25,131 nucleotides of DNA, taken from the IMG/VR virus record IMGVR_UViG_3300035698_005203, positions 1 through 25,131 of that record, one strand, 5' to 3'. Shown here in pieces: positions 1,681 through 13,410 of the stretch (its first letter is position 1; each line of letters begins with the position of its first letter). Both the position numbers and the translations under genes were made by a program. Source of the stretch: a virus. Below the pieces are notes generated by a model. The model worked only from the letters and a program-made list of their open reading frames with translations. It did not search any database and was not told where the DNA came from.

Positions 1681-2556
1681 TTAGCTCCTCACGTCCCAAG
1701 ACGATATTCGATGATTGTGTAGCTGAACGCGCCTAGTTGGGCGGGGCTGGTATTGGCGCATCTTCATACGCATAACCTCTGCGGCCTGCTTCGCTTGTGC
1801 TCGATGGAACTTGGCATCTTCGCCTGGGGCTCCTCGAGATAAGAACGTATATACTTCGTAGAGCGTGCAGGCTGTGAGCCAATCCAGAGGACAATCTGTT
1901 CCGCTGTCAGTCCAGACGTGTGAGCCGTATGGCCGCAGGACCATAAGCCGAATTGTTGCTATCGTGGCGAGGGAGCTAATAGGGCGAATGTGCAGGGTAA
2001 TGGCTCCCGCATCATCGCTCAACTCAAACCATTCCACAGGAGAATACTGGTACTCTCCGGTAGTATTCCCAATTACCCAGAACACATCGGTAACTTGGTC
2101 GGGCGTGGTAATCCAGTCGTAAATTGACAGGTCATACTCGCGCTGGTTTGCAACCAAAGTAATGGGTACATAGTCGATGTAATAGCATCGGTCCATTGCC
2201 TTATCGATCAGGCGATCAAGGTCATCCGGCGCTAGCAAACTGTGAGTCTCAAAGTAGTCACCCTTCTCGGGTACTGCCTCTAGCGCGGGCAGAAAGTATA
2301 ACCGTCCCTCTTCTGGATCGTAGCCCTGTATACTCTCGCTTTCGTTGGTAAGCCGCACGCGCCGAGTCTCCGATAGCGCACCGTCTGCGGCATAAAGCCT
2401 GAGCCAGGCGCGATCGTAGAGGGCATAGTCTTCGTCCGGGTCAATCAGGTCAGAGTCGTAGATATAAGTAGAGCCCGCCGAATCGACGCGCCCTACGAAA
2501 CACTCCCCTAGTTCGTAGCCGACTGCTCGGCGGACTGTCTCTAACGTATTTGCCAT
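1681..2556 (-). CDS. Head-tail adaptor-like structural protein
   Basis: This 291-residue protein has an ATG preceded by GGAG at 5 nt spacing. It starts with a helical stretch (TLETVRRAVGYELGE), continues with a beta-rich acidic middle (about residues 20-210, many Tyr/Asp/Trp), and ends with a helical basic tail (about 220-290, FHRAQAKQAAEVMRMKMRQ then Arg-rich). It lies between the capsid decoration genes and the propeller-like gene, the position of connector or adaptor proteins that join portal and tail. No catalytic motif is visible. The role as adaptor or neck protein is inferred from position and general composition; I do not recognise a specific family. It ends 3 nt before the next start, so translation of the pair is probably coupled. 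Confidence 0.6.
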   Translation of the reverse strand: MANTLETVRRAVGYELGECFVGRVDSAGSTYIYDSDLIDPDEDYALYDRAWLRLYAADGALSETRRVRLTNESESIQGYDPEEGRLYFLPALEAVPEKGDYFETHSLLAPDDLDRLIDKAMDRCYYIDYVPITLVANQREYDLSIYDWITTPDQVTDVFWVIGNTTGEYQYSPVEWFELSDDAGAITLHIRPISSLATIATIRLMVLRPYGSHVWTDSGTDCPLDWLTACTLYEVYTFLSRGAPGEDAKFHRAQAKQAAEVMRMKMRQYQPRPTRRVQLHNHRISSWDVRS

Positions 2557-2574
2557 AGTTGCTCCATATCCTAA

Positions 2575-2914
2575 TTAGGTCAAGTCTTCCCAGGTTACTA
2601 AGAGCTGGTCACGCCTAGTTGGTGTACCGCCCTCGTTGTTGATAGTGTCGGTGGCTGTAATCGAGAACTCCGAGGTCATGTCATCCAATACGGCAATAGA
2701 TGCTTTAGTTGAAAAGTGCATTACTGAGATTAGAAAATCTCCAGGCTCAATGCCCAAGCATACAATGTCTCCAGCGGCATCTCCGTCTGCAAGAGCGTTC
2801 CCATCCATAAGTGTAGGTAATCAAGTCTCCGAGACCAATATTGGTAGCAAGAGTGACGACTGCTAACCCCCAACCCGCGACAACTCTACGATTTATGGTA
2901 TCTTCGCATGTCAT
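2575..2914 (-). pseudogene. Decayed fourth copy of the decoration-protein gene
   Basis: The ATG at 2912-2914, with upstream AAGGGG, opens a 55-codon frame ending at 2747. Its first 38 residues match the start of the neighbouring decoration proteins: DT near residue 5, a GWG-AVVTLA strand, IGLGD, then YGW. After YGW the homology moves to another frame, 1 nt later, which runs from about 2808 to 2575. That frame gives the C-terminal domain of the family (AAGDIVCLGIEPGDFLISV, then DLT at the very end). Relative to the 202-aa copy next door, about 88 central residues are missing as well as the frame being shifted. Both remaining halves are free of stops, so the event looks recent. A 77-residue C-terminal protein could start at an ATG at 2806-2808, but no ribosome site precedes it. 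A functional frameshift product cannot be excluded. Confidence 0.8.
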
Positions 2915-2931
2915 GCCCCTTCTCCTGGGAG

Positions 2932-2953
2932 GGGAGAGAGGGGCTTCTCTCCC
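2932..2953 (-). other. Intergenic hairpin between decoration copies 3 and 4
   Basis: The arms at 2932-2939 and 2946-2953 are perfectly complementary over 8 bp (GGGAGAGA / TCTCTCCC) around a 6-nt loop. The hairpin lies 15 nt after the stop of copy 3 and just before the AAGGGG of the broken copy. There is no T tract, so it is more likely an RNA stability or processing element than a terminator. Confidence 0.55.
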
Positions 2954-2968
2954 TCTCTCCTATCCGAA

Positions 2969-3577
2969 CTAAGTCAGGTCTTCGTAAATCACAAGAAGCT
3001 GGTTGCTAGTTGTGTTGGTCTCGCCGTCCGCATTCGTGATTTTGTCAGCTGCAAGAACCCAAGTCTCAGAAGTCAAATCGGCAGCCGTGGCGATGGAGGC
3101 AGCGGTGGTGAGTTCGATTACGGAAATCAGGCGATCGCCCGCTGCAATGCCCGTACAAGTAAGGTCGGCCGCAGCAGCGCCACCTGTAACAAGAGCCGCC
3201 TTGATACCTTTGCTCTGAGGGCGGGCATTGGCCCCAACCATGAGCTGCGTTGCACTCAAGGCAAAGCCTACAGCGGGACAGCCCACCGTAATGGTCTGTG
3301 TAAGATCGCCATCAGCATCCAAGTAAACAGCCCCGCCAGGAGTGGCGCCCGTGGGACCGGACAAGATAGCGCCAGCATAGGCGGCAATTTCGTAACCAGA
3401 GGCCGCTGTTGCTCCAGCAATCAGAATGGGTTTCTCAATAGCGACAGCCGCTACTGCATGTTTCCATCCCGAGCTGTAGTAGATCGCGTCACCAAGACCA
3501 ACGTCATCAGCCAGGGTGACAGTTACCGCGCCCCAGCTCGATACAATTGTACGAGCTGCGGTGTCTGCAAAGGCCAT
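2969..3577 (-). CDS. Capsid decoration / head-fibre-like protein, copy 3
   Basis: The third intact member of the array has 202 residues if started at the ATG at 3575-3577. That start has AAGGAG at 6 nt spacing and gives the MAFAD beginning of its paralogs. An ATG 6 nt further upstream abuts the ribosome site directly and is less likely. The protein is small, Ala/Gly/Thr-rich and beta-rich, with two parts: an N-terminal domain to about residue 125 ending in ARPQSKG, and a C-terminal domain ending DQLL/NQLL-VIYEDLT-like. Location directly after the major capsid gene and the domain pattern suggest a protein bound to the outside of the head. Copy 3 is the most divergent intact copy, with GANARPQSKG where the others have GHNARPQSKG. 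The decoration role is inferred. Confidence 0.8.
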   Translation of the reverse strand: MAFADTAARTIVSSWGAVTVTLADDVGLGDAIYYSSGWKHAVAAVAIEKPILIAGATAASGYEIAAYAGAILSGPTGATPGGAVYLDADGDLTQTITVGCPAVGFALSATQLMVGANARPQSKGIKAALVTGGAAAADLTCTGIAAGDRLISVIELTTAASIATAADLTSETWVLAADKITNADGETNTTSNQLLVIYEDLT

Positions 3578-3593
3578 AGTCATCTCCTTCTAA

Positions 3594-3611
3594 AGGGGGC
3601 CGAAGCCCCCT
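3594..3611 (-). other. UUCG-capped hairpin between decoration copies 2 and 3
   Basis: Read on the minus strand, arms of 7 bp (AGGGGGC / GCCCCCT) enclose a TTCG loop closed by C-G. This is the C(UUCG)G tetraloop known for exceptional stability. Only three T residues follow, then the AAGGAG of copy 3. It could give partial termination or protect or process the mRNA between two copies. Confidence 0.65.
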
Positions 3612-3618
3612 AGTTATT

Positions 3619-4221
3619 CTAGGTCAGGTCTTCGTACCAAACCATGAGCTGATTGCTCGCAGTCGAAGTACCTGCATCGTTGTTGAGCGTATTGGCCGCC
3701 GAGATCGTAAACTCCGAGGTCAGGTCAACTACACCCTCAATGGTGCCGGCAACATCGAAAACGAGCACCGAGATCAAGCGATCCGCTGCAGCGATTCCAG
3801 TAACCGTCACGTCGCCAGCGGTGGCGCCGGCGGCCAGAAGCACACCGAGCCCTTTGCTCTGAGGGCGGGCGTTATGCCCAACGAGAGCCTGGGTAGCACT
3901 GATAGCCACGCCGATAGCGGGATAGCCGGTCGTCTGCGTTTCAGTAAACGCGCCAGCAGCCGTTAGATAGATGGGACTACCAGGCGTCGCGCCAGTAAGA
4001 CCGCTGATCACAGCGGACATGTAAGCAGGGATGGTTTCTCCCGAGTCGCCAGCTTCGCCAGCGAACAGGATGGGTGTCTGAATTGGAACGGCTGCGACGC
4101 CTACTTTCCAACCGGAATTGTAATAAAGGGAGTCGCCCTTTTTCACAGTTCCAGCAAGCTCAATATGCATCACACCCACGCCATTAATTGCGTCTCTCGA
4201 ACCAGTATCGGCAAATGCCAT
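3619..4221 (-). CDS. Capsid decoration / head-fibre-like protein, copy 2
   Basis: This 200-residue paralog starts at an ATG with AAGGAG at 6 nt spacing. It is closest to copy 1 in the N-terminal domain: MAFAD, GVGVMHIELAGTV, GWKVGVAA, IPAYMSAV, YPAIGVAISATQ, LVGHNARPQSKG. The C-terminal domain (about residues 130-200) has AADRLISVLVF, then DLTSEFTISAANT, then the shared EDLT end. That last pattern resembles what I associate with phage head-fibre and decoration proteins, but this was not verified. There is no signal peptide or membrane segment. Conservation is stronger in the N-terminal half than in the C-terminal half between copies. This is what would be expected if the N-terminal part binds the capsid lattice and the C-terminal part is exposed and varies. 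Confidence 0.82.
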   Translation of the reverse strand: MAFADTGSRDAINGVGVMHIELAGTVKKGDSLYYNSGWKVGVAAVPIQTPILFAGEAGDSGETIPAYMSAVISGLTGATPGSPIYLTAAGAFTETQTTGYPAIGVAISATQALVGHNARPQSKGLGVLLAAGATAGDVTVTGIAAADRLISVLVFDVAGTIEGVVDLTSEFTISAANTLNNDAGTSTASNQLMVWYEDLT

Positions 4222-4238
4222 GTGAATCTCCTTCCAAA

Positions 4239-4258
4239 GAAGGGGATTAGACCCCTCC
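4239..4258 (-). other. Intergenic hairpin between decoration copies 1 and 2
   Basis: Arms at 4239-4245 and 4252-4258 pair over 7 positions, including one G-T wobble on the minus strand (GGAGGGG / CCCCTTC), around a 6-nt loop. It occupies the same place, between stop and ribosome site, as the hairpins at the other junctions of the array, although its sequence differs. Confidence 0.5.
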
Positions 4259-4267
4259 TAAACTATT

Positions 4268-4873
4268 CTAGGTCAGGTCTTCCCAAATGACCAAGAGCTG
4301 GTCATTACTCGTATCCGTGGTCGCCAGGGCGATCTTGCCAGCAGCTACGGTAATAACATTGGCAGCGGTGATATCGGCCAGCGAAGCGATAGAGGCAAGC
4401 GTAGTGAAGTGCAGGACTTTGATCACCCTATCACCTACTGCGATTCCGGCACAGGTCAATTCTGCGGTGGCCGTCGAGCCAGTAACTAGAGCCATAGCGA
4501 TGCCCTTGCTCTGCGGTCGAGCATTGTGACCAACGAGAATCTGCGTTGCGGAGATGGCTACGCCAATGGCAGGATAGCCAGCGGTGAGAGTCTCGGTAAA
4601 CGCGCCGCCGGCGTTAAGATAGATCGGATTGCCAGCGGTAGCGCCGGTGATACCGTTTACCACGGCGCTCATGTAGGCCGGGATAACTTCGCCCGAAACG
4701 CCATCCATGCCAGCGATCAAGATAGGTGTCTGAATAGCCGTGGCCGCAATAGCGACCTTCCAGCCAGTGCTGTAGTAAAGAGCGCAGCCCTTAGTGACAG
4801 TGCCCGCGAGGGTAATGTGCATGACGCATACGCCATTAACCACATCTCTAACTCCTGAATCTGCAAAAGCCAT
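4268..4873 (-). CDS. Capsid decoration / head-fibre-like protein, copy 1
   Basis: This is the first copy of the array downstream of the major capsid gene, 201 residues, with an ATG start and AAGGAGG at close spacing. It has the family blocks MAFADSG, GWKVAIAA (residues 38-45), IPAYMSAV (64-71), YPAIGVAISATQ (100-111), LVGHNARPQSKG (113-124), CAGIAVGDRVIKV (141-153) and a final EDLT. The composition is Ala/Thr/Gly/Val-rich with almost no charged clusters, as in all-beta virion surface proteins. Its C-terminal domain differs from copy 2 more than its N-terminal domain does. The likely role is a capsid-stabilising or surface-binding accessory protein. Why the phage keeps three versions is unknown. 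Confidence 0.82.
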   Translation of the reverse strand: MAFADSGVRDVVNGVCVMHITLAGTVTKGCALYYSTGWKVAIAATAIQTPILIAGMDGVSGEVIPAYMSAVVNGITGATAGNPIYLNAGGAFTETLTAGYPAIGVAISATQILVGHNARPQSKGIAMALVTGSTATAELTCAGIAVGDRVIKVLHFTTLASIASLADITAANVITVAAGKIALATTDTSNDQLLVIWEDLT

Positions 4874-4915
4874 GTTGTCCTCCTTATGAGGTTATTTGTT
4901 AAACAATCAGAGGGA

Positions 4916-4937
4916 AAAGGGGGCCGGAGCCCCCTTT
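4916..4937 (-). terminator. Terminator-like hairpin after the major capsid gene
   Basis: On the minus strand, 9-bp arms (AAAGGGGGC / GCCCCCTTT) enclose a TCCG loop and are followed by one more T and then CCC. The hairpin begins 7 nt after the capsid stop. The strong GC stem with a UNCG-type loop and short T run fits a leaky intrinsic terminator or a 3' stabiliser of capsid mRNA. Since the decoration genes follow without another clear promoter, complete termination is unlikely. Confidence 0.55.
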
Positions 4938-4944
4938 GTTCGAT

Positions 4945-5898
4945 CTAGGCAGGAACAGCCAGGACATCGGAATCGGTGATGCCAGAGATTCGGGCAACGC
5001 AGCTTGAGCTGTAGGCCGCTAAACCGCAATACCACTTCATGCGCGTCCGGGAGGCGTCCTTATTCTCCAAGGTCTCAAAGACTTCCGTGGTAATGCCGCC
5101 GTTCTGAACGCCGATCAAGCCATCACCCTCGCCCTGATAGATCACAAACACAGAGCTATCGTAGCCACCAGTGGAAGCGGAGTAGGTGCTGTCAGCTATC
5201 AACTCGGTCTGATTGATCCAGTCAGTCACAACAATTGGAATGCCACGGTACTTGGTAACGTAATTGCCCCAGTCGTCACGATCGACGTTGTAGGAACCTA
5301 CGCTGCGCAGATAAGCATTCATTCGGCGTGCGATGGTCGGATTCATCAGAATCATATCGGGCCTGCCGCGCCGCGAAACTTCATCAATGGCCTCGTCCAA
5401 CATAATAAGCGAGAGGTTCAGGCCGGTATCCGTCGAGCCAGCGCAGAACTCCATAGCCGTGTTGCCACAGTTGTCAACGATGTAATGCAGGCCATTGAAG
5501 CCGAGCGAAGAAGCGGCAGTGCCGTAAATGCACTGGTTCTCGAACTTGTGGCCCATGAGCTTGGTCTTGATTCGGACCTGCTCGGCCATGAGATCGTTCG
5601 TCTCACCGTGAGTAGCAGCCAGGAAGTTGGGCACATCGGCCTGCGTTACCAGGGAGTACAGGCTGTAGCTCACCTGGGTAAACGAAGCCTCGGTGCTCTC
5701 GATCGTGGCGTCCAAGCCGACGAAGCCAGCCGCGCCCATGTTGTCCGTATCTTCACGGTTCACGGAAAGAGCGTTTCCGTTAATCGCCTGAAACTGGAGC
5801 ATAGTCAGAAGGGGGCTGGTTTTCATCAGCTCCTCAACAATACCCTTTACCAGAAAGTCCTCACTCAGATTAGTAGCCTGTGCCAGTGTCATAGCCAT
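4945..5898 (-). CDS. Major capsid protein (HK97-like fold)
   Basis: This 317-residue protein starts at an ATG preceded by GGAGG, 20 nt after the scaffold gene. The N-terminal helix (MAMTLAQATNLSEDFLVKGIV, with a stretch like EELMKTSPLLTMLQFQ) and a following loop with NREDTD-NMGAAGFVG resemble the N-arm and E-loop of HK97-type capsid proteins. The middle has an ITxMDEAIDEVSRRGRPDMILMNP-type segment (about residues 164-188) typical of the spine helix and P-domain strand, and the end is beta-rich. Length and position between scaffold and decoration genes fit the usual capsid subunit. No protease gene is seen nearby, so the scaffold is probably expelled or cleaved by an unseen enzyme. Family assignment rests on pattern and context. 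Confidence 0.85.
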   Translation of the reverse strand: MAMTLAQATNLSEDFLVKGIVEELMKTSPLLTMLQFQAINGNALSVNREDTDNMGAAGFVGLDATIESTEASFTQVSYSLYSLVTQADVPNFLAATHGETNDLMAEQVRIKTKLMGHKFENQCIYGTAASSLGFNGLHYIVDNCGNTAMEFCAGSTDTGLNLSLIMLDEAIDEVSRRGRPDMILMNPTIARRMNAYLRSVGSYNVDRDDWGNYVTKYRGIPIVVTDWINQTELIADSTYSASTGGYDSSVFVIYQGEGDGLIGVQNGGITTEVFETLENKDASRTRMKWYCGLAAYSSSCVARISGITDSDVLAVPA

Positions 5899-5918
5899 GT
5901 TAGTAGCCTCCTACATTC

Positions 5919-6653
5919 TTATTGGTTTCGCTTCGCCTCCAAGGCGGCAATGAAGCCTCTTTTGATCTTTTCCTTGGGAGTGAGCTTGCTGAAGTCCTCA
6001 GTCTTTGTCGCTTTGCCGCCCCCGAGTTGAGGGCCGCCGTCTGCCTCGTCAGCAACGCGCTCATGATTCTCGGCTTTCGCCTTGGCCTTCGTCGCCTTGG
6101 CCTTGTCCTTTTCCAGGCGAGCTTCAATCTGCACGTTTTGAACAGCAGACAGAAATTCACCGTAGGTCTTGAACTTGCCAGCGTTCGACTGGGCCTCAAT
6201 CTCTTCGCGTTTTGCTACATCCGAAATCGTACCTAGCGTCTCCGTTTGGACGTGGGCATACGCTGCCGCCTGAGCACGCTGTGCGGCTATTGCCTTCTGT
6301 TGGTTAACGCCCTGCTGCTCACGCACTGTTCGCCCATATTCCTCGTCATTCATGGTGGACATACGCTGACGCTCTGCGTTGGCTAACGCCTGTGCCTCGA
6401 ACTCTCGTCGAGCTTCCTGTTTCGCTTGGAACTTGGCTGCATCTACTGCACCCTGCTTTTCTCTGCGAAACGCCTCTTCTGCCGTGAGTTCTGGTGTAGT
6501 GGGTTGCTCCTGTACCGCTGGTTCCTGGGCCGGGGAAGCGCTGTCCTGGTTGGTCTCTGGCTGGGTATCCCCAACCGAAACGCTCTGTTCAGCGTGCTCC
6601 TGTGCCACTGGCTCAACGGCCCCGGAAGGGCTCTTTACACTTGGAATAGTCAC
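5919..6653 (-). CDS. Capsid assembly scaffolding protein
   Basis: This 244-residue protein uses a GTG start at 6651-6653 with GGAGG about 10 nt upstream. It is dominated by charged, Ala/Gln/Glu-rich helices (about residues 58-195) with coiled-coil character, after a Pro/Gln/Ser-rich disordered beginning. It ends in a basic amphipathic helix (KLTPKEKIKRGFIAALEAKR), the feature by which many phage scaffolds bind the inside of the shell. Lys/Ala runs near 185-195 (KDKAKATKAKAKAE) add to the low complexity. The location immediately before the major capsid gene is classical. It should act inside the procapsid and leave before or during DNA packaging. It is not an enzyme as far as can be seen. Confidence 0.82.
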   Translation of the reverse strand: MTIPSVKSPSGAVEPVAQEHAEQSVSVGDTQPETNQDSASPAQEPAVQEQPTTPELTAEEAFRREKQGAVDAAKFQAKQEARREFEAQALANAERQRMSTMNDEEYGRTVREQQGVNQQKAIAAQRAQAAAYAHVQTETLGTISDVAKREEIEAQSNAGKFKTYGEFLSAVQNVQIEARLEKDKAKATKAKAKAENHERVADEADGGPQLGGGKATKTEDFSKLTPKEKIKRGFIAALEAKRNQ

Positions 6654-6756: not shown

Positions 6757-9700
6757 CTACCACTGTGGCAATTTGTTCGTTGCGCTCTGAATATAGTTAC
6801 TAGCCCAGCTCGGTCCCTGTTCGGCCATTGCAAACTGGTCCTGATAGTTAGGGTACAGTTGATCCAGAGATTCCCCTTCCAAATCTGAGAAGAAGACAGA
6901 GAGCAGAGGATGGCTTGCCCAAAACTGCTTTCTTTGCGGATTAGTCTTGCCTCTAATCGCTTTGATCAAGTAGGCGCCCTCTGGGTCTTGCTGCGCATAC
7001 ATCGCCCAGGTCGTTTGCGAGGGAATGTTTGGATTGGCCCGGCGCATATCACGGATCGTTGCCGCTGCGGCGTCTGCTTTTCTAGCCTGCTGCTCCGATA
7101 CCCCGCTATACTTCTGAATGTTGTAGTATTCGCTTCGTTCTTTAAGCGCCTGAACGTAGAGCGGATGCCTATTGCGATTAATGTAAGCCTCGGCCTGGGC
7201 AACTATGTTCGGGTCTGCGTTCGCCGCCAATTGCTCTCTAAGCCTAACGACCTCGCCAGCATCCAGTACGCCAGTGGCCGGGTCTTTCAGCTCCCTGGGA
7301 ATCTGATAATAGGCATTGATGTAGATATCCACCCCGGAGTCATCGGTATCCGAGCTCGCCCCATAATAGGCCAGCCGCTCGGCCTGGGTCAGAGGGACTT
7401 CCGCATACTTGTCGTCTGCTTTCAGTAGCTCGGGAATCTGGCCCATCATCATCTCTCGTTGCATGAGCTGATCACGATAGTCATTGCCACTGATTTGCCC
7501 TGACTCGAGAGCGGCATTCAGACTGGCAACTTCTTGCATGTAAGGCTCTCGCGCCTTGTCTACAGTGTTCCAGAAGCTCGAGATAACACTGCCGTCATCC
7601 GCTGCTTTCTGGCGGCTATATTCCCGATCGGCATTGAGTTCTGGACTAGCCGCATAGAGAGCCGTTTTCTCCGTGCTGGTAAGATCATTGAAGCCTTTGC
7701 CATAGAACTGCTTGGCCGTATCTTCTTGAAGCTTTGAGGCCCGCCCCGTAAATGGCTGTTGCGGGAAGGTTCTTAAACCCAAGAAGTCTAGCGCGTATGA
7801 TGTTCCAGCCTGTTTGCTAGTAGATTTCTTGAGAAAATCCCCAAGGCCCTTACCCGTATCCCCCTTGAGTTGCGCCGCTACGTGCCCGGCGTCGATACCC
7901 GAGTTGATCCAGATGGGGAGCAGGTTGTCCGAGATGGCACGCTTGGCAATATCCCCAACTCCTTCAATCGGTTGACCAAAGTAGTTATGGCCTCTCGAGA
8001 GGTCGAGCAGGGTTCCCGCTAGAGGCGAGAGTCTGGACTGAGCATAACTGCTGATAGTTTTCAGGCCCTTTTCCGGCTCGGCGCCAAGGCGCATAAGCAT
8101 GCGGGCTGTGGAGAAGAAGGCGCCCCCGACTCCCACATACTGATCGTTGATTTTGACGGTCATAAACTTGCCGCCAGACTTGACATTCCAGTTCGGCTCC
8201 TGGTCCAAGATCGCGCAGATCAACATGTATCCCGCAGCTCCCAGAAGCAGACTAGAGCCGAGGGCCTTGCGAGCCTGGGTGCCTGTGATACTATTTTCTC
8301 CAATAGCTTTATAAATCGCCAGGGTCGATCTTGTGTATGTCGGTGCAAATAGAGAGACGTGTTCGACCAGCTTTTGGGTATAGCTGAGGCCCAGTCTGGA
8401 GGTCTCCATAGCACCTGTCGATCGGTTCCAGAAGTCGGCCAGCTCACGCGACTGCTGCGCGACATCTCCGTTTTTAGGATTGACAAGATGCTCCGTAGAC
8501 TGCATACCATACAGGCGCATCAGGTTCAAGTTTTCCTCGAAAACTTGAGAGCCAGCCTTAAACAGCTTTCCGAGTCCGGGTATCTTCTTGAACATAGGCT
8601 CGGCCTCGGTATATTCTGAGTTATACAGAGTCAGGCCAAACGGAGTATACTTTTTGATGATATCATTCAATCCCGTCAGGCGATTGGCGTATCCCTTGGA
8701 GTCTCCAAGGTCAGCGAACGTATGCACCATAGCCTTGGCCCACACTTTCGGACTATAGAAGAGCGTGGATAAACCTTGCATCACCGCCGGCCCAGCATCA
8801 AGCACCGTCAGGGCTTCTCGAGAAATATCGTTGAGAATCCCGGCCTTATTCAGTACGGTCTCAACTCCTTTAGCAAATCCCTCCTTTTCATTCATGCCCA
8901 AAGCCTCGCGGGCAAGCTCGTAATCCTGTGCCGTAACCTTGATCCCGTGTCTTTTTGAGAGTGTCATTACTGGCTGTCCGTTTTTGGTCTGCGGGTATAC
9001 GCCGACAGCATTTGGCTGTATGGCTATTGTGTCCTTGAAGTGATTGGCGACGCGATGATTGGCAACCCTGGCCGCAACCCCTCGCAGGTTGAGCTCGACG
9101 GCTTCAATGGGAGAAAGGTAGTGATACCCCTCCTTTATACCCTCTGCCTGAGTCTGGAATGAGCGCGGGCTTTCCATCCCAACCGTTTTATCAAAGCGAG
9201 CAGAACGCCTATCGGATGAGTTCTCCACAATTACCGAGCCGTCTTCCAATTGCTTTCCCTCAACGCCGTGCCTCTTAGCTACTTCCTCTGGAATAGCGTA
9301 GGTCCAACGGCCAATATGTTTCTCGTCGACTCCAAGATTTCGCAGTACAAGGTCCATGCCCTCATCTTGATAGAGCTTCTTGAAGTGATCGTAGACATAG
9401 TGTAAGTCATCGGCTAAGGCTTTCTGTTCTGGATTCAGTTGATAACGAGAGGCGTATTCCAGAACGTCGCCCGGCGGTCGATTAACTACGGCTCCACTCT
9501 TTAGTGTTACCTTGATATTGTCTCCGTCAAACTCGAATAACTCACCAATAGATGCGTGACGCTTGAGGCGATTCATTGCCTGCTGCCCAGACGAATAGAT
9601 GCGACTTCTTACGGTATCGAAAAGAACACGGCCAACAACATACGGGTTGTCCAGCGGGACGCCCAGCCAGCTTATCGCTCTAGCAACGGGAGGAGCCTTG

Positions 9701-12700
9701 CGCTCGAGCCAGGTCTGGAATTTGCGGATGGTATCGCCCTTATATGCTTGTCCTATAATCTTGGCATTAGAATCACATCCAAAATCGGATGTACCACCAG
9801 TAGAGGGGAGGCCCGTGGGGGTTGGTCCCATAGGTGGCGCGACGGGTGGCGTAGTCGGGGGCAAACCTGCGGGAGGAACAACAGGCGGCGTTGTCTGCTG
9901 CTGTCTGATTCTATTTGTGCCGGGAGTGCCGCCTACGGCGGGCTGACTCACTTGGCCAAACCCACCCATTAGAACATTGACAGCCTTTTGGCGCAGTTGT
10001 TTGTTGGCGAATACAGACTGGCGACTCAGGTATTCATCCAGGTCGGTGCGTTCCCATTTCTCGTTGACAGCATCAAGCACGTCGATAATGCCCATTACTT
10101 CTTGGCGATAGGCGTCCATGTCGCCTTTGTTTCCTGCGTCAGTCCAGGCTTTGTAATTCTCCGACGTAACGACAGTATCAGAAAGCTGCCCTCGCATGTC
10201 TTCCAGGTTTGGCACGTCTGGCTGCATGATTGACTCAGGGGCCTTCATGGGATCAAGGGCTCCTTCGGCTATCAGGTCCTCATCTTCTTGCGCTCGCTTC
10301 TGCGCAAACTCACGCTGGAGCTCCTCCTCTTCCAGTCCGGGTCTGTAGTAATCAATCTGCTCGATGCCTAATGGGTCTTCGTCTTTGATCGTTGTGAAGG
10401 CTCCCGGATCGTTAGCCAGGTGCGGGTCAACTACCTCTTCCACCTTGGCATCTCCCATGCTCCGATCAATCATGCGATCGACCGAGTTAGCTCTGCTTTG
10501 GGCTGTGTTAAAGGCTCGCCGGATGTACTGGGAAGGGGCTTCGTATTCGGAGTACGTTGCTCGCACGCCGGCCTTGGAACCCCACTTTTCCACGTGATCC
10601 CGATAGTCCTCAAAGAAATCCCGCAGCGTATCGGGCTGATTGGCTAGGCGCCCAAGAGCCAAGGCCATTGCGGCGCCGTCCGGGTTCTCGCCCACCATCT
10701 CTCGATAAACTTCTTCTGGGGTTGAGTCTGGACTGCGGGTTAATGCGTCGATAGCATCTGGCATGGTGTATTTCAGGTTATACGCCCAGCTTGCGCTATC
10801 CGAGCCGTCAACATTTGCGGCGCTCTGGATACGATTAAGCACGGAATAGTTGTCCTCAAGAGCTACAGCGAGAGCCTTCCCCCTTGGGGTTTCGTTAGCA
10901 AGCAGGCGCTCGCCCACGCCATCCCCGCCGATCAGCCGGTCCAGTTGTTCGGCCTGTACAGGAGCGCGGCTTTCTAGGGCCTGCCGAATCATGGCCTCTT
11001 CGTCGAACTCGGCATCCCTCGCCAAAGACTCTTGCTCTACTCCTGTGGCGGTCTGCTCTTCGCCTGCCATCTCTCTAATTTGAGTGCGCATATCATCCGT
11101 TAGGCCCGGCTCGGTACTTCCGCCGGCGGCCAAGTCTCGCGTCTTAGCCAGGTCTCCAGCCATCTTATAGGCGTTATAGATCAAGTCGTCTCGAGATGGC
11201 AAATCCCTCTGAGCCTTTGAGTTGTTATAAGCTTCCCGAGCCTGAGCAACCAGAGACGAATAAGCCTCCAGTGTATCACTAAGCTTTCCAGGACTTGCTT
11301 CCGCATCGCCAAGAGCCATCGAAAGAGTGTTTGCGGATTGGAAGACACTGTTGGGGCTTTCGTCTTTTTCGTAGCGCCACTTATCATAGGCGTCCGCGTC
11401 TTGCGGCCCATCATTAATCATACCCAGTGCGAGATCAAGTGCTTCACTAATATCGTAACGCCCCTTTAGAGGAGTGCCTTCCGCTTCGGCATTTATCTGT
11501 TTCACTTGAGCTAGAGATTTGGCGCTCTCTTCGATTTCACTCAATACAGCCTGAACTCGTGGTTTTTCAGAATCAACATACTTACGTACAAGCTCTGCCT
11601 GACGGGGGTCTAGCGTATCTACTGGGATAACGGCACGTTCCACTGCGGGTTCTGGTGCCTGCTCCATAATCGGCAACGGCTCCTGAGCTCGCTCGATCGT
11701 GGGTTCTACGGGTTCCCGGACTTGCTCGGGCTCTACTGGGCGAGACTCGGCGAAATCATCGGGAAGAAGGTCTTTAATAGAAACACCACCCTCATAAGAG
11801 GGATAGGGTTTGCGCACACTATCATATTTCATATGCATAGCTGAACCGTCGTCTAGCATTACATTGACGTTCTTTTCCGCCATACCATCGAAAGCACCAA
11901 ACCTCGTTACATGACTCGTAACTACGGAAGCACCCTCGACCGTTCCGGGTCCATTATCTGTTTCTACGCGATCGCCAACCTTGAATCCCTGCAACAGCTC
12001 TTCGTCGCTCACATTTTCAATCTTGTTATATTCATCATCCGAATCAACCCAGCGATCAGCGGGTTTCTCCGCGTCTTCCATTCCAGCAAAGGGCTTGACG
12101 GCCCCGCGCTGTGCTTCTTCTGGCGACATCTGATTAACGTCTTGTATAGCGCGACCAATTGCAGGCCCCCAACGATCGGCGCCCACACCGGAGGCCAACT
12201 GATTCAGACCAAGAACACCACCTGCCGCATCGCCAAGCGATCGACCAACTCCCCTGCCTTCCAGCATAGAGTTCGCAAACTGAATAGGCACCTGTGCGGG
12301 GGCAGCCATTAAGCGAGAGGGCGCCATTTTAGCCCAAGTATACAACTGACCGCCACGCGAGCCAGCTTCAGTAGCTTCTCGAGCAACCCTAGAGGCCGCG
12401 CTATCTCCGCCAACTCCCCTTGCGACCTGCCGCGCCATTGTTGGCATTTCGCCCATCTGTTTTTGCAAAGCAGTAGCCGCCATCTCGTAGGCGTCATTGT
12501 CAATCTCGCCAAGAGCACGAGAAGCATTGAGGTTGCTCAGTTGTCGGGCAATCTTGGTGCCCTGAATTGCCTGGCCACCAAAGTAGCCGGGCCACGCCAT
12601 GGGCGAAGTTGCTAGGTCAAGAGCCTCAGACTTGTTCATTATATTAAACCACTTGGCTGCCTTGGTCATCTCGTCAGACGAAGCAGCCGCCTTCCCAGCA

Positions 12701-13410
12701 ATCCGGGCTACCTCATCCATGTTATTCCTGGCAAGCGCAGCCATCGTGCCGCGCAGGGCATCGTCACTTAGCCCCAGACCCTTGAGCGCCGTGAGACCTT
12801 TGCTTTTAGAAAGTAGCGTAACGGGGTCCAGCCAGAACAAGGGGTCGGCCAACAGGTTCTCGGTAAACCACTTTTCGCTGACGTGGTATTTGCCAACATC
12901 AAAACCCGCTATTTCGGGACGCGCCTCCTCCAGCCCTCGGGCTTGCCCATACCAGCTTGCAGCCTTTTCCAGAGAAGTATCACCCTGAGCAACAATCTGC
13001 TTCCCTGGAGTAAGGGCTTCCGTAAGGGCGCCAAGAATTGGTTTGCCAATATACTCAGCAGGCACGTTAAGCACGTCCATCAATCCGCCCCAGACATTCT
13101 TTAGCTTAGGCGCCTGGCTCCATGCCGATCGACCTTCCGGCGTATCGTCGAGTCCCGTATAGTCCCAGCCTCTTGTCTCGGGATTATACCCTAGCCGCTG
13201 GGCCATGCTCGAATCGAAGGAGCCCGCCCCGCCAGTCTGGGCCATCTGTTGCGTATAGTTCTGCGCCCAAGAAGGGGTCTCGCCGGGCTGTCTCTGCTGA
13301 CGGCTCTGCTGCCATGCCTGAAAATTAGACGCAGCAGTACTAGGTTTTGGCGAGTCAAGTTCGCTCTCGTCAAAGTCCGTTGGATTGGTATATTCTAGGA
13401 GATTTGGCAT
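6757..13410 (-). CDS. Giant 2217-aa virion / DNA-ejection protein candidate
   Basis: The largest gene of the window starts at an ATG with a GGGGG site, 5 nt after the previous gene. Parts seen: a Gln-rich N-terminus (1-90); helical Ala/Met-rich regions (100-430); a small beta domain like an SH3 or Tudor fold (about 475-535, GDRVETDNGPGTVEG); a Pro/Glu linker (about 551-598); long acidic helical regions; and a Pro/Thr linker (about 1163-1205). A conserved-looking C-terminal half follows, with one hydrophobic segment at about 1715-1734 (LLLGAAGYMLICAIL) and WNVKSGGKFMTVKI after it. Large multidomain helical proteins of this kind in short-tailed phages are internal virion proteins that leave the head with the DNA. 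The neighbouring transglycosylase supports this. The C-terminal half also recalls large polyvalent phage proteins. I see no polymerase or protease motif. The function is inferred. Confidence 0.65.
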   Translation of the reverse strand: MPNLLEYTNPTDFDESELDSPKPSTAASNFQAWQQSRQQRQPGETPSWAQNYTQQMAQTGGAGSFDSSMAQRLGYNPETRGWDYTGLDDTPEGRSAWSQAPKLKNVWGGLMDVLNVPAEYIGKPILGALTEALTPGKQIVAQGDTSLEKAASWYGQARGLEEARPEIAGFDVGKYHVSEKWFTENLLADPLFWLDPVTLLSKSKGLTALKGLGLSDDALRGTMAALARNNMDEVARIAGKAAASSDEMTKAAKWFNIMNKSEALDLATSPMAWPGYFGGQAIQGTKIARQLSNLNASRALGEIDNDAYEMAATALQKQMGEMPTMARQVARGVGGDSAASRVAREATEAGSRGGQLYTWAKMAPSRLMAAPAQVPIQFANSMLEGRGVGRSLGDAAGGVLGLNQLASGVGADRWGPAIGRAIQDVNQMSPEEAQRGAVKPFAGMEDAEKPADRWVDSDDEYNKIENVSDEELLQGFKVGDRVETDNGPGTVEGASVVTSHVTRFGAFDGMAEKNVNVMLDDGSAMHMKYDSVRKPYPSYEGGVSIKDLLPDDFAESRPVEPEQVREPVEPTIERAQEPLPIMEQAPEPAVERAVIPVDTLDPRQAELVRKYVDSEKPRVQAVLSEIEESAKSLAQVKQINAEAEGTPLKGRYDISEALDLALGMINDGPQDADAYDKWRYEKDESPNSVFQSANTLSMALGDAEASPGKLSDTLEAYSSLVAQAREAYNNSKAQRDLPSRDDLIYNAYKMAGDLAKTRDLAAGGSTEPGLTDDMRTQIREMAGEEQTATGVEQESLARDAEFDEEAMIRQALESRAPVQAEQLDRLIGGDGVGERLLANETPRGKALAVALEDNYSVLNRIQSAANVDGSDSASWAYNLKYTMPDAIDALTRSPDSTPEEVYREMVGENPDGAAMALALGRLANQPDTLRDFFEDYRDHVEKWGSKAGVRATYSEYEAPSQYIRRAFNTAQSRANSVDRMIDRSMGDAKVEEVVDPHLANDPGAFTTIKDEDPLGIEQIDYYRPGLEEEELQREFAQKRAQEDEDLIAEGALDPMKAPESIMQPDVPNLEDMRGQLSDTVVTSENYKAWTDAGNKGDMDAYRQEVMGIIDVLDAVNEKWERTDLDEYLSRQSVFANKQLRQKAVNVLMGGFGQVSQPAVGGTPGTNRIRQQQTTPPVVPPAGLPPTTPPVAPPMGPTPTGLPSTGGTSDFGCDSNAKIIGQAYKGDTIRKFQTWLERKAPPVARAISWLGVPLDNPYVVGRVLFDTVRSRIYSSGQQAMNRLKRHASIGELFEFDGDNIKVTLKSGAVVNRPPGDVLEYASRYQLNPEQKALADDLHYVYDHFKKLYQDEGMDLVLRNLGVDEKHIGRWTYAIPEEVAKRHGVEGKQLEDGSVIVENSSDRRSARFDKTVGMESPRSFQTQAEGIKEGYHYLSPIEAVELNLRGVAARVANHRVANHFKDTIAIQPNAVGVYPQTKNGQPVMTLSKRHGIKVTAQDYELAREALGMNEKEGFAKGVETVLNKAGILNDISREALTVLDAGPAVMQGLSTLFYSPKVWAKAMVHTFADLGDSKGYANRLTGLNDIIKKYTPFGLTLYNSEYTEAEPMFKKIPGLGKLFKAGSQVFEENLNLMRLYGMQSTEHLVNPKNGDVAQQSRELADFWNRSTGAMETSRLGLSYTQKLVEHVSLFAPTYTRSTLAIYKAIGENSITGTQARKALGSSLLLGAAGYMLICAILDQEPNWNVKSGGKFMTVKINDQYVGVGGAFFSTARMLMRLGAEPEKGLKTISSYAQSRLSPLAGTLLDLSRGHNYFGQPIEGVGDIAKRAISDNLLPIWINSGIDAGHVAAQLKGDTGKGLGDFLKKSTSKQAGTSYALDFLGLRTFPQQPFTGRASKLQEDTAKQFYGKGFNDLTSTEKTALYAASPELNADREYSRQKAADDGSVISSFWNTVDKAREPYMQEVASLNAALESGQISGNDYRDQLMQREMMMGQIPELLKADDKYAEVPLTQAERLAYYGASSDTDDSGVDIYINAYYQIPRELKDPATGVLDAGEVVRLREQLAANADPNIVAQAEAYINRNRHPLYVQALKERSEYYNIQKYSGVSEQQARKADAAAATIRDMRRANPNIPSQTTWAMYAQQDPEGAYLIKAIRGKTNPQRKQFWASHPLLSVFFSDLEGESLDQLYPNYQDQFAMAEQGPSWASNYIQSATNKLPQW

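Follow-up and report, generated by a model that had tools for sequence, protein, structure and literature searches.

Tandem genes for probable capsid decoration proteins in an uncultivated phage share a mobile C-terminal module

Three intact paralogous genes, D1, D2 and D3, directly follow the major capsid protein (MCP) gene in a 25.1-kb IMG/VR virus fragment, and they probably encode virion proteins of two domains that serve in capsid decoration. The whole fragment was analyzed and is hereafter called the window; its structural genes lie on the minus strand. The C-terminal half of the paralogs, which the preliminary description of this DNA had overlooked as a unit, is a separate mobile domain, and it was found in 38 IMG/VR contigs besides the window.

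Organization of the array

The gene upstream of the array is confirmed by its profile matches as encoding an HK97-type MCP (Table 1). D1 begins 71 nt after the MCP gene and lies in the head module beside it, the location expected for genes of the cement family PF09956 (Phage_cement_2). Three intact paralogs and a truncated fourth, D4, had been reported behind the MCP gene, and this is borne out by the open reading frames, by the alignment and by a D1 query that matches D2, D3 and D4 at E values of 2e-70, 2e-59 and 7e-13, which places their paralogy far beyond chance. Each cistron of D1, D2 and D3 has its own strong Shine-Dalgarno sequence. The length of 202 aa is adopted for D3, with its start at 3577, because the second ATG carries the Shine-Dalgarno sequence; the 204-aa frame of the ORF caller begins two codons early.

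Table 1. Features of the array and its immediate neighbors in the window
Feature	Position	Strand	Evidence and details
MCP gene, 317 aa	4945-5898	-	phrog_212, E 8e-55; Pfam GP7, SU10_MCP and Phage_capsid over cut-off; upstream neighbor of the array
GC-rich hairpin followed by T-run, terminator-like, after MCP gene	4916-4935	-	z -2.8 vs shuffles
D1, intact paralog, 201 aa	4268-4873	-	ORF and alignment; N-domain ~4502-4873, C-module ~4271-4489; module profile match
D2, intact paralog, 200 aa	3619-4221	-	N-domain ~3850-4221, C-module ~3622-3834; module profile match; sub-cut-off Phage_cement_2 match in N-domain
Similar GC-rich hairpin after D2	3594-3611	-	z -1.6 vs shuffles, not clearly above chance
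D3, intact paralog, 202 aa	2969-3577	-	N-domain ~3206-3577, C-module ~2972-3187; module profile match; sub-cut-off XM1 gp53 match
Hairpin between D3 and D4	2933-2960	-	z -0.6 vs shuffles, not above chance
D4, N-terminal remnant	2804-2914	-	Retains the start at 2914, its Shine-Dalgarno and ~37 codons of the N-domain; the 2750-2914 frame matches the N-domain profile at E 1e-6
D4, complete C-module	2575-2808	-	77 open codons, +1 frame relative to remnant; normal stop; module profile match
Next gene downstream of the array, 291 aa	1681-2556	-	Pfam and PHROG searched, no match

The fourth copy had been called broken, which holds for one part of it only. D4 is 263-269 nt shorter than D1-D3, with the middle of the N-terminal domain missing and the frame changed where about 265 nt are lost, but its C-terminal module scores 104 bits against the 40-row module profile, as high as that of D2 (104 bits; D3, 91 bits; D1, 70 bits). 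All four window modules are themselves rows of this profile, and all four have the half-module order AB that is discussed below. Within the decoration explanation, D4 probably descends from a complete copy whose cement domain has lost its middle part, and the loss of most of that domain argues against binding of D4 to the capsid lattice.

Alternatively, D4 could be alive, its 77-aa C-terminal part being made as a stand-alone module or joined to the 37-aa remnant by a +1 ribosomal frameshift. The high score of its module, the 77 open codons (chance of approximately 0.02 by composition) and the existence of natural stand-alone module genes, of 88-107 aa with short N-terminal tails, in many contigs are in keeping with such activity, and phage SPP1 is known to lengthen its tail tube protein via a +1 frameshift (PMC6316719). 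We regard it as somewhat unlikely, however, given that the Shine-Dalgarno sequence of the internal ATG is weak and distant, that no slip site of the SPP1 type (CCCUAA) was seen by eye in the overlap, and that the same picture would result from a recent break or from an indel in the assembly. The sequence fits equally well with a gene that became a pseudogene recently, with a functional stand-alone module and with an assembly indel.

Among the intergenic hairpins, only the one behind the MCP gene clearly beats shuffled sequences (others, z -0.6 to -1.6), and no regulatory claim is made because they are only partly above chance. The segments 4916-4935 and 3592-3611, which follow the MCP gene and D2, respectively, form a near-identical (95%) pair of 20-nt GC-rich hairpins. 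Elsewhere in the window, a 2217-aa protein is encoded at 6757-13410 on the minus strand, between a scaffold-like gene and a small one of 313 aa; a Pfam search gave no convincing match for it, but its length and location suggest that it is internal to the virion. A terminase query found no match.

Conservation and selection among the copies

The N-terminal half was earlier described as better conserved than the C-terminal half. Identity is indeed higher in the N half of all three pairs (D1/D2, 76% vs 38%; D1/D3, 55% vs 49%; D2/D3, 56% vs 53%; P = 0.0025, column permutation), but the difference is uneven, being strong only for D1/D2, to which the significance is mainly owed. The alignment and dN/dS comparison that had been proposed was performed by region and pair. 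Synonymous sites are saturated in all pairs and in both halves (pS 0.58-0.82), whereas pN (0.12-0.44) is much below pS in every region and pair. Saturated pS together with low pN indicates that the duplications are old and that every region has been under purifying selection. These comparisons gave no sign of recent gene conversion among D1-D3, and recent conversion was rejected as the reason why the N half is better conserved, because synonymous sites are saturated in both halves. A repeat search of positions 2500-6000 found no long near-identical repeat in the array and, in this fragmentary contig, no near-identical template/variable repeat of the diversity-generating retroelement kind in that interval.

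The extra copies might be no more than redundant duplicates heading for loss, with D4 the first to decay and no separate roles for the others. The large deletion and frame change in D4 can be read this way, as can the single module gene of nearly all other module carriers. Yet D1-D3 have remained open and constrained through saturated synonymous divergence, which is unexpected for redundant copies, and we consider redundancy unlikely.

The N-terminal domain resembles cement proteins

The N-terminal domain, residues 1-124 of D1-D3, is a probable but not proven cement-type domain, judged from profile searches. When the isolated N-domains were compared with Pfam, the only matches were to Phage_cement_2, Phage_cement (E217 gp24/Pam3 gp6) and the XM1 gp53 minor capsid protein, at E values of 0.013-0.94 and all below cut-off. 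Against PF09956 (curated cut-off, 24 bits), the N-domains of D2 and D1 score 16.1 and 10.6 bits; against PF23982 (XM1 gp53; cut-off, 27 bits), that of D3 scores 15.7 bits; and against PF22758 (Phage_cement; cut-off, 27 bits), that of D2 scores 14.7 bits. Consistently, in six-frame searches of the window the only PF09956 matches (11.4 bits) are held by D2 and the only PF23982 match (13.4 bits, E 8e-4) by D3, and there was no match to PF22758. The assignment is kept at probable because profile-profile comparison with cement proteins gave a match too weak to use and because the AlphaFold2 model of the domain, with a pLDDT of 36, is unusable for its fold.

The first genes after the MCP gene in 18 loci with a related MCP have no similarity to D1-D3. 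Neither full-length D1 or D2 nor a three-row profile retrieved a relative from IMG/VR or genomes, and tblastn in phages found none. Relatives were retrieved only after the domains were split, and no relative sharing both the N-domain and the C-module was found. The sole match to the DNA pattern for NARPQSKG, in locus L008, is a DNA polymerase locus and was dismissed as chance.

In Ruegeria phage RpAliso (L018:4488-5428), two consecutive annotated minor capsid genes, alike by eye, follow an MCP related to that of the window. Judging from this pair, the window's phage may not be alone in carrying decoration-type genes in tandem.

The C-terminal module is a family of its own

The C-module comprises the C-terminal ~72 residues of D1-D3 and is separate from the ~124-residue N-domain. 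Overlapping searches with a four-row window profile, a ten-row profile and a family consensus retrieved 7 IMG/VR loci, 1 more and 34, respectively; the first of these queries, made of the four window C-domains and independent of the 40-row profile, gave E values of 4e-10 to 2e-24 for the best six outside members. Three pairs among the 38 contigs are near-duplicates (L027/L028, L040/L041 and L056/L057), and the count is a lower bound since the collection scans need exact short peptides. Searches of 84,980 genomes of prokaryotes and 50,697 phage records with the family consensus gave no match, zeros that hold for near-consensus forms. In 36 carriers the module is not covered by any Pfam family, and no single PHROG family gathers the carriers. 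NCBIfam likewise gave no convincing match, the commonest weak one being a hemagglutinin-repeat model (best E 0.0057) that touches 8 of 40. The module is widespread in uncultured phages and seems rare among cultured ones.

Counted over whole records (L041 and L057 over the fetched stretches only), 35 of the 38 contigs have one module gene, the near-duplicates L027/L028 have two adjacent genes, and the contig of L030 has two that are far apart. The comparison of copy number that had been proposed covers module carriers only; among them the window has four module genes, and at most two are adjacent in the other contigs collected. In L027, adjacent module genes (3857-4219 and 4256-4537; 121 and 94 aa) lie right after a gene for a 795-aa MCP-protease fusion; no further tandem array of modules was found outside the window. 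The MCP family of the window is absent from all the fetched module loci, so the module crosses capsid lineages.

Structure prediction, which was among the checks proposed, was informative for the C-module and failed for the N-domain. The AlphaFold2 model of the D2 C-domain, computed with 40 rows, has seven strands (pLDDT 94.1, pTM 0.81), and the module is confidently predicted to be a compact beta domain. A Foldseek search against the PDB gave no match better than E 0.18, and none of the 50 listed matches is a decoration protein of the Ig-like kind, which leaves an Ig-like assignment unsupported. Among predicted viral structures, the best match comes from the cultured Stenotrophomonas phage DLP5 and is 97 aa long (TM 0.71, probability 1.00, E 0.0037). 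The 97-aa DLP05_013 (L072:9068-9361) fits this length and is the only module-profile match in the DLP5 genome (E 7.7e-4). DLP05_013 resembles the window module as a distant stand-alone relative, the nearest cultured one, and differs from D1-D3 in lacking a cement domain and in lying among head-tail connection and tail genes.

The module occupies several positions in virion proteins

In three loci (L025, L026 and L039) the module is C-terminal on cement proteins that exceed the PF09956 cut-off, and those of L025 and L026 also match the head decoration family phrog_122. Cement-module fusions outside the window lie between the protease and the MCP. As read from the sequences, the module is inserted in cement-like proteins with host sequence on both flanks in L051:4701-5276, L052:4704-5288, L063:4707-5279 and L067:4689-5264, the host protein of L051 being over the PF09956 cut-off, and it is inserted in a virion protein in L045. 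It is also found inside an SU10-type adaptor (L030:3482-4405) and in fiber-like proteins.

The module was further found nested within itself. Using half-module profiles built without L044, L049 and L058, the order of halves is AAABBB in L044:4308-5444 and L049:4311-5420, AABB in L058:3513-4007, and AB in all other carriers. Tandem copies would read ABAB, and the observed orders instead look like the insertion of one entire module into another, at the loop that separates its halves. For such nesting the two ends of the module would have to be close together, and each insertion would add a layer.

The genes next to those of the module mainly encode head maturation proteases, major head proteins and scaffolds. 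Nevertheless, the occurrence of the module in fiber-like proteins and in an SU10-type adaptor means that the module alone is no marker of capsid decoration. D1-D3 could accordingly be neck, collar or tail appendages that merely adjoin the MCP gene, with the module serving as a general virion appendage domain. The place of the DLP5 relative among head-tail connection genes agrees with this, and the best match of the N-domain to a PDB sequence of phage origin, albeit weak (E 0.15), is the neck fiber 8keg. An appendage role is quite unlikely, however, in view of the N-domain Pfam leads, which are all cement or minor capsid families, and of the location of the cement-module fusions elsewhere.

Exchange of modules between copies

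The two domains do not rank the copies alike. In column bootstraps, D1 and D2 are the closest pair in 100% for the N-domains and in 0.2% for the C-domains. In a tree of 40 C-domains, D2 groups with the outside sequence L064 (97/90) and D1 with D3 (96/88), while approximately unbiased (AU) tests reject neither a single origin of the four window modules (P = 0.149) nor a grouping of D1 with D2 (P = 0.094). The differing ranks suggest, though they do not prove, that modules may have been exchanged between copies; faster evolution of the D1 module is an alternative. The preliminary description had suggested that the array may be a diversification cassette. Although the discordant bootstraps and the outside partner of the D2 module could be cited for it, a cassette whose copies act as donors and acceptors actively recombined to vary the exposed half is very improbable because the saturated synonymous sites of both halves exclude recent conversion, pN is much lower than pS, the array has no long near-identical repeats, and a single origin of the window modules is not rejected.

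A model of capsid decoration

Decoration of the capsid by D1-D3 is favored because the array is directly after the HK97-type MCP gene, because the Pfam matches of the N-domain are to cement and minor capsid families only, because the module is fused to true PF09956 proteins elsewhere, and because its gene neighbors are head genes. It is also favored by the confident model of the module, by purifying selection on D1-D3 despite saturated pS, by the separate Shine-Dalgarno sequences, and by analogy with Hoc and pb10. The case is weakened by the failure of the N-domain to reach Pfam cut-offs, by the weak profile-profile comparison, by the unusable N-domain model, by the module's presence in fiber-like proteins and an adaptor, and by the dissimilar genes behind the MCP in the 18 related loci. 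A fixed capsid-binding domain with a variable exposed domain, as proposed earlier, is backed by the place after the MCP gene, the two-domain layout, the stronger constraint on the N-domain, the module's fusion to PF09956 proteins elsewhere and the cement-family leads, but these leads are below cut-off and the proposal is unproven.

Under the decoration model, the N-terminal cement-like domain would bind the capsid lattice, and the C-terminal beta-module would fold independently and be held outside the shell, where it may contact the host surface, the environment or neighboring subunits. Adhesion is the role usually proposed for exposed capsid domains (PMC7602432). The array would have arisen by old duplications in which the N-domain was held more constant than the module. 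If the three products occur together in one particle, the surface might be mixed, a mosaic of variants, or the variants might serve different lattice sites.

A wider reading can be offered only tentatively, with slightly less confidence than even. The module would be an unnamed mobile beta domain that becomes attached to, inserted in or nested within virion surface proteins of uncultivated phages with unrelated coat proteins. Through repeated self-insertion (AAABBB), a spike would lengthen outward while keeping a single base, and the window's phage would have a three-variant capsid surface whose modules are exchanged on a constant anchor. The array makes it possible to ask whether a phage uses more than one decoration variant at a time, and by what route a surface domain passes from one capsid lineage to another, unrelated one. 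Nesting of a module within itself is also unusual and bears on the evolution of virion surfaces.

Comparison with known systems

A fixed anchor with variable exposed domains is already known from Hoc and pb10, which combine a capsid anchor with an exposed domain (PMC10385173, PMC5292684), and one or two such genes per phage are reported in the literature compared, two Hoc-type genes each being present in phages Muldoon and PG7 (PMC10385173). The window has three old, constrained variants side by side, on a module with no entry in the family libraries searched and no solved structure. The T4 Hoc family resembles D1-D3 in joining a conserved capsid-binding domain to variable exposed beta domains (PMC10385173). 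In T4 Hoc, however, the anchor is C-terminal and the exposed domains are Ig-like, whereas the window has three intact copies with an N-terminal putative anchor and a module that matches neither Ig nor other PDB structures. The anchor of T5 pb10 is alpha-helical, its C-domain is Ig-like and its gene is single (PMC5292684), compared with three intact genes in the window; the model of the D2 C-module lacks the Ig-like likeness that Hoc and pb10 share.

Cement proteins (PF09956/phrog_122, PF22758 and PF23982) are similarly encoded beside the MCP gene and are the only Pfam families to which the N-domains point. True PF09956 members carry the module in L025, L026 and L039, whereas the window N-domains fall below every cut-off. 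Ig-like domains on phage virion proteins (PMC7602432) are, like the C-module, promiscuous beta domains found on several classes of virion protein. The C-module differs from them in being not detectably Ig-like and in nesting within itself, a behavior not described for Ig-like domains in the literature compared.
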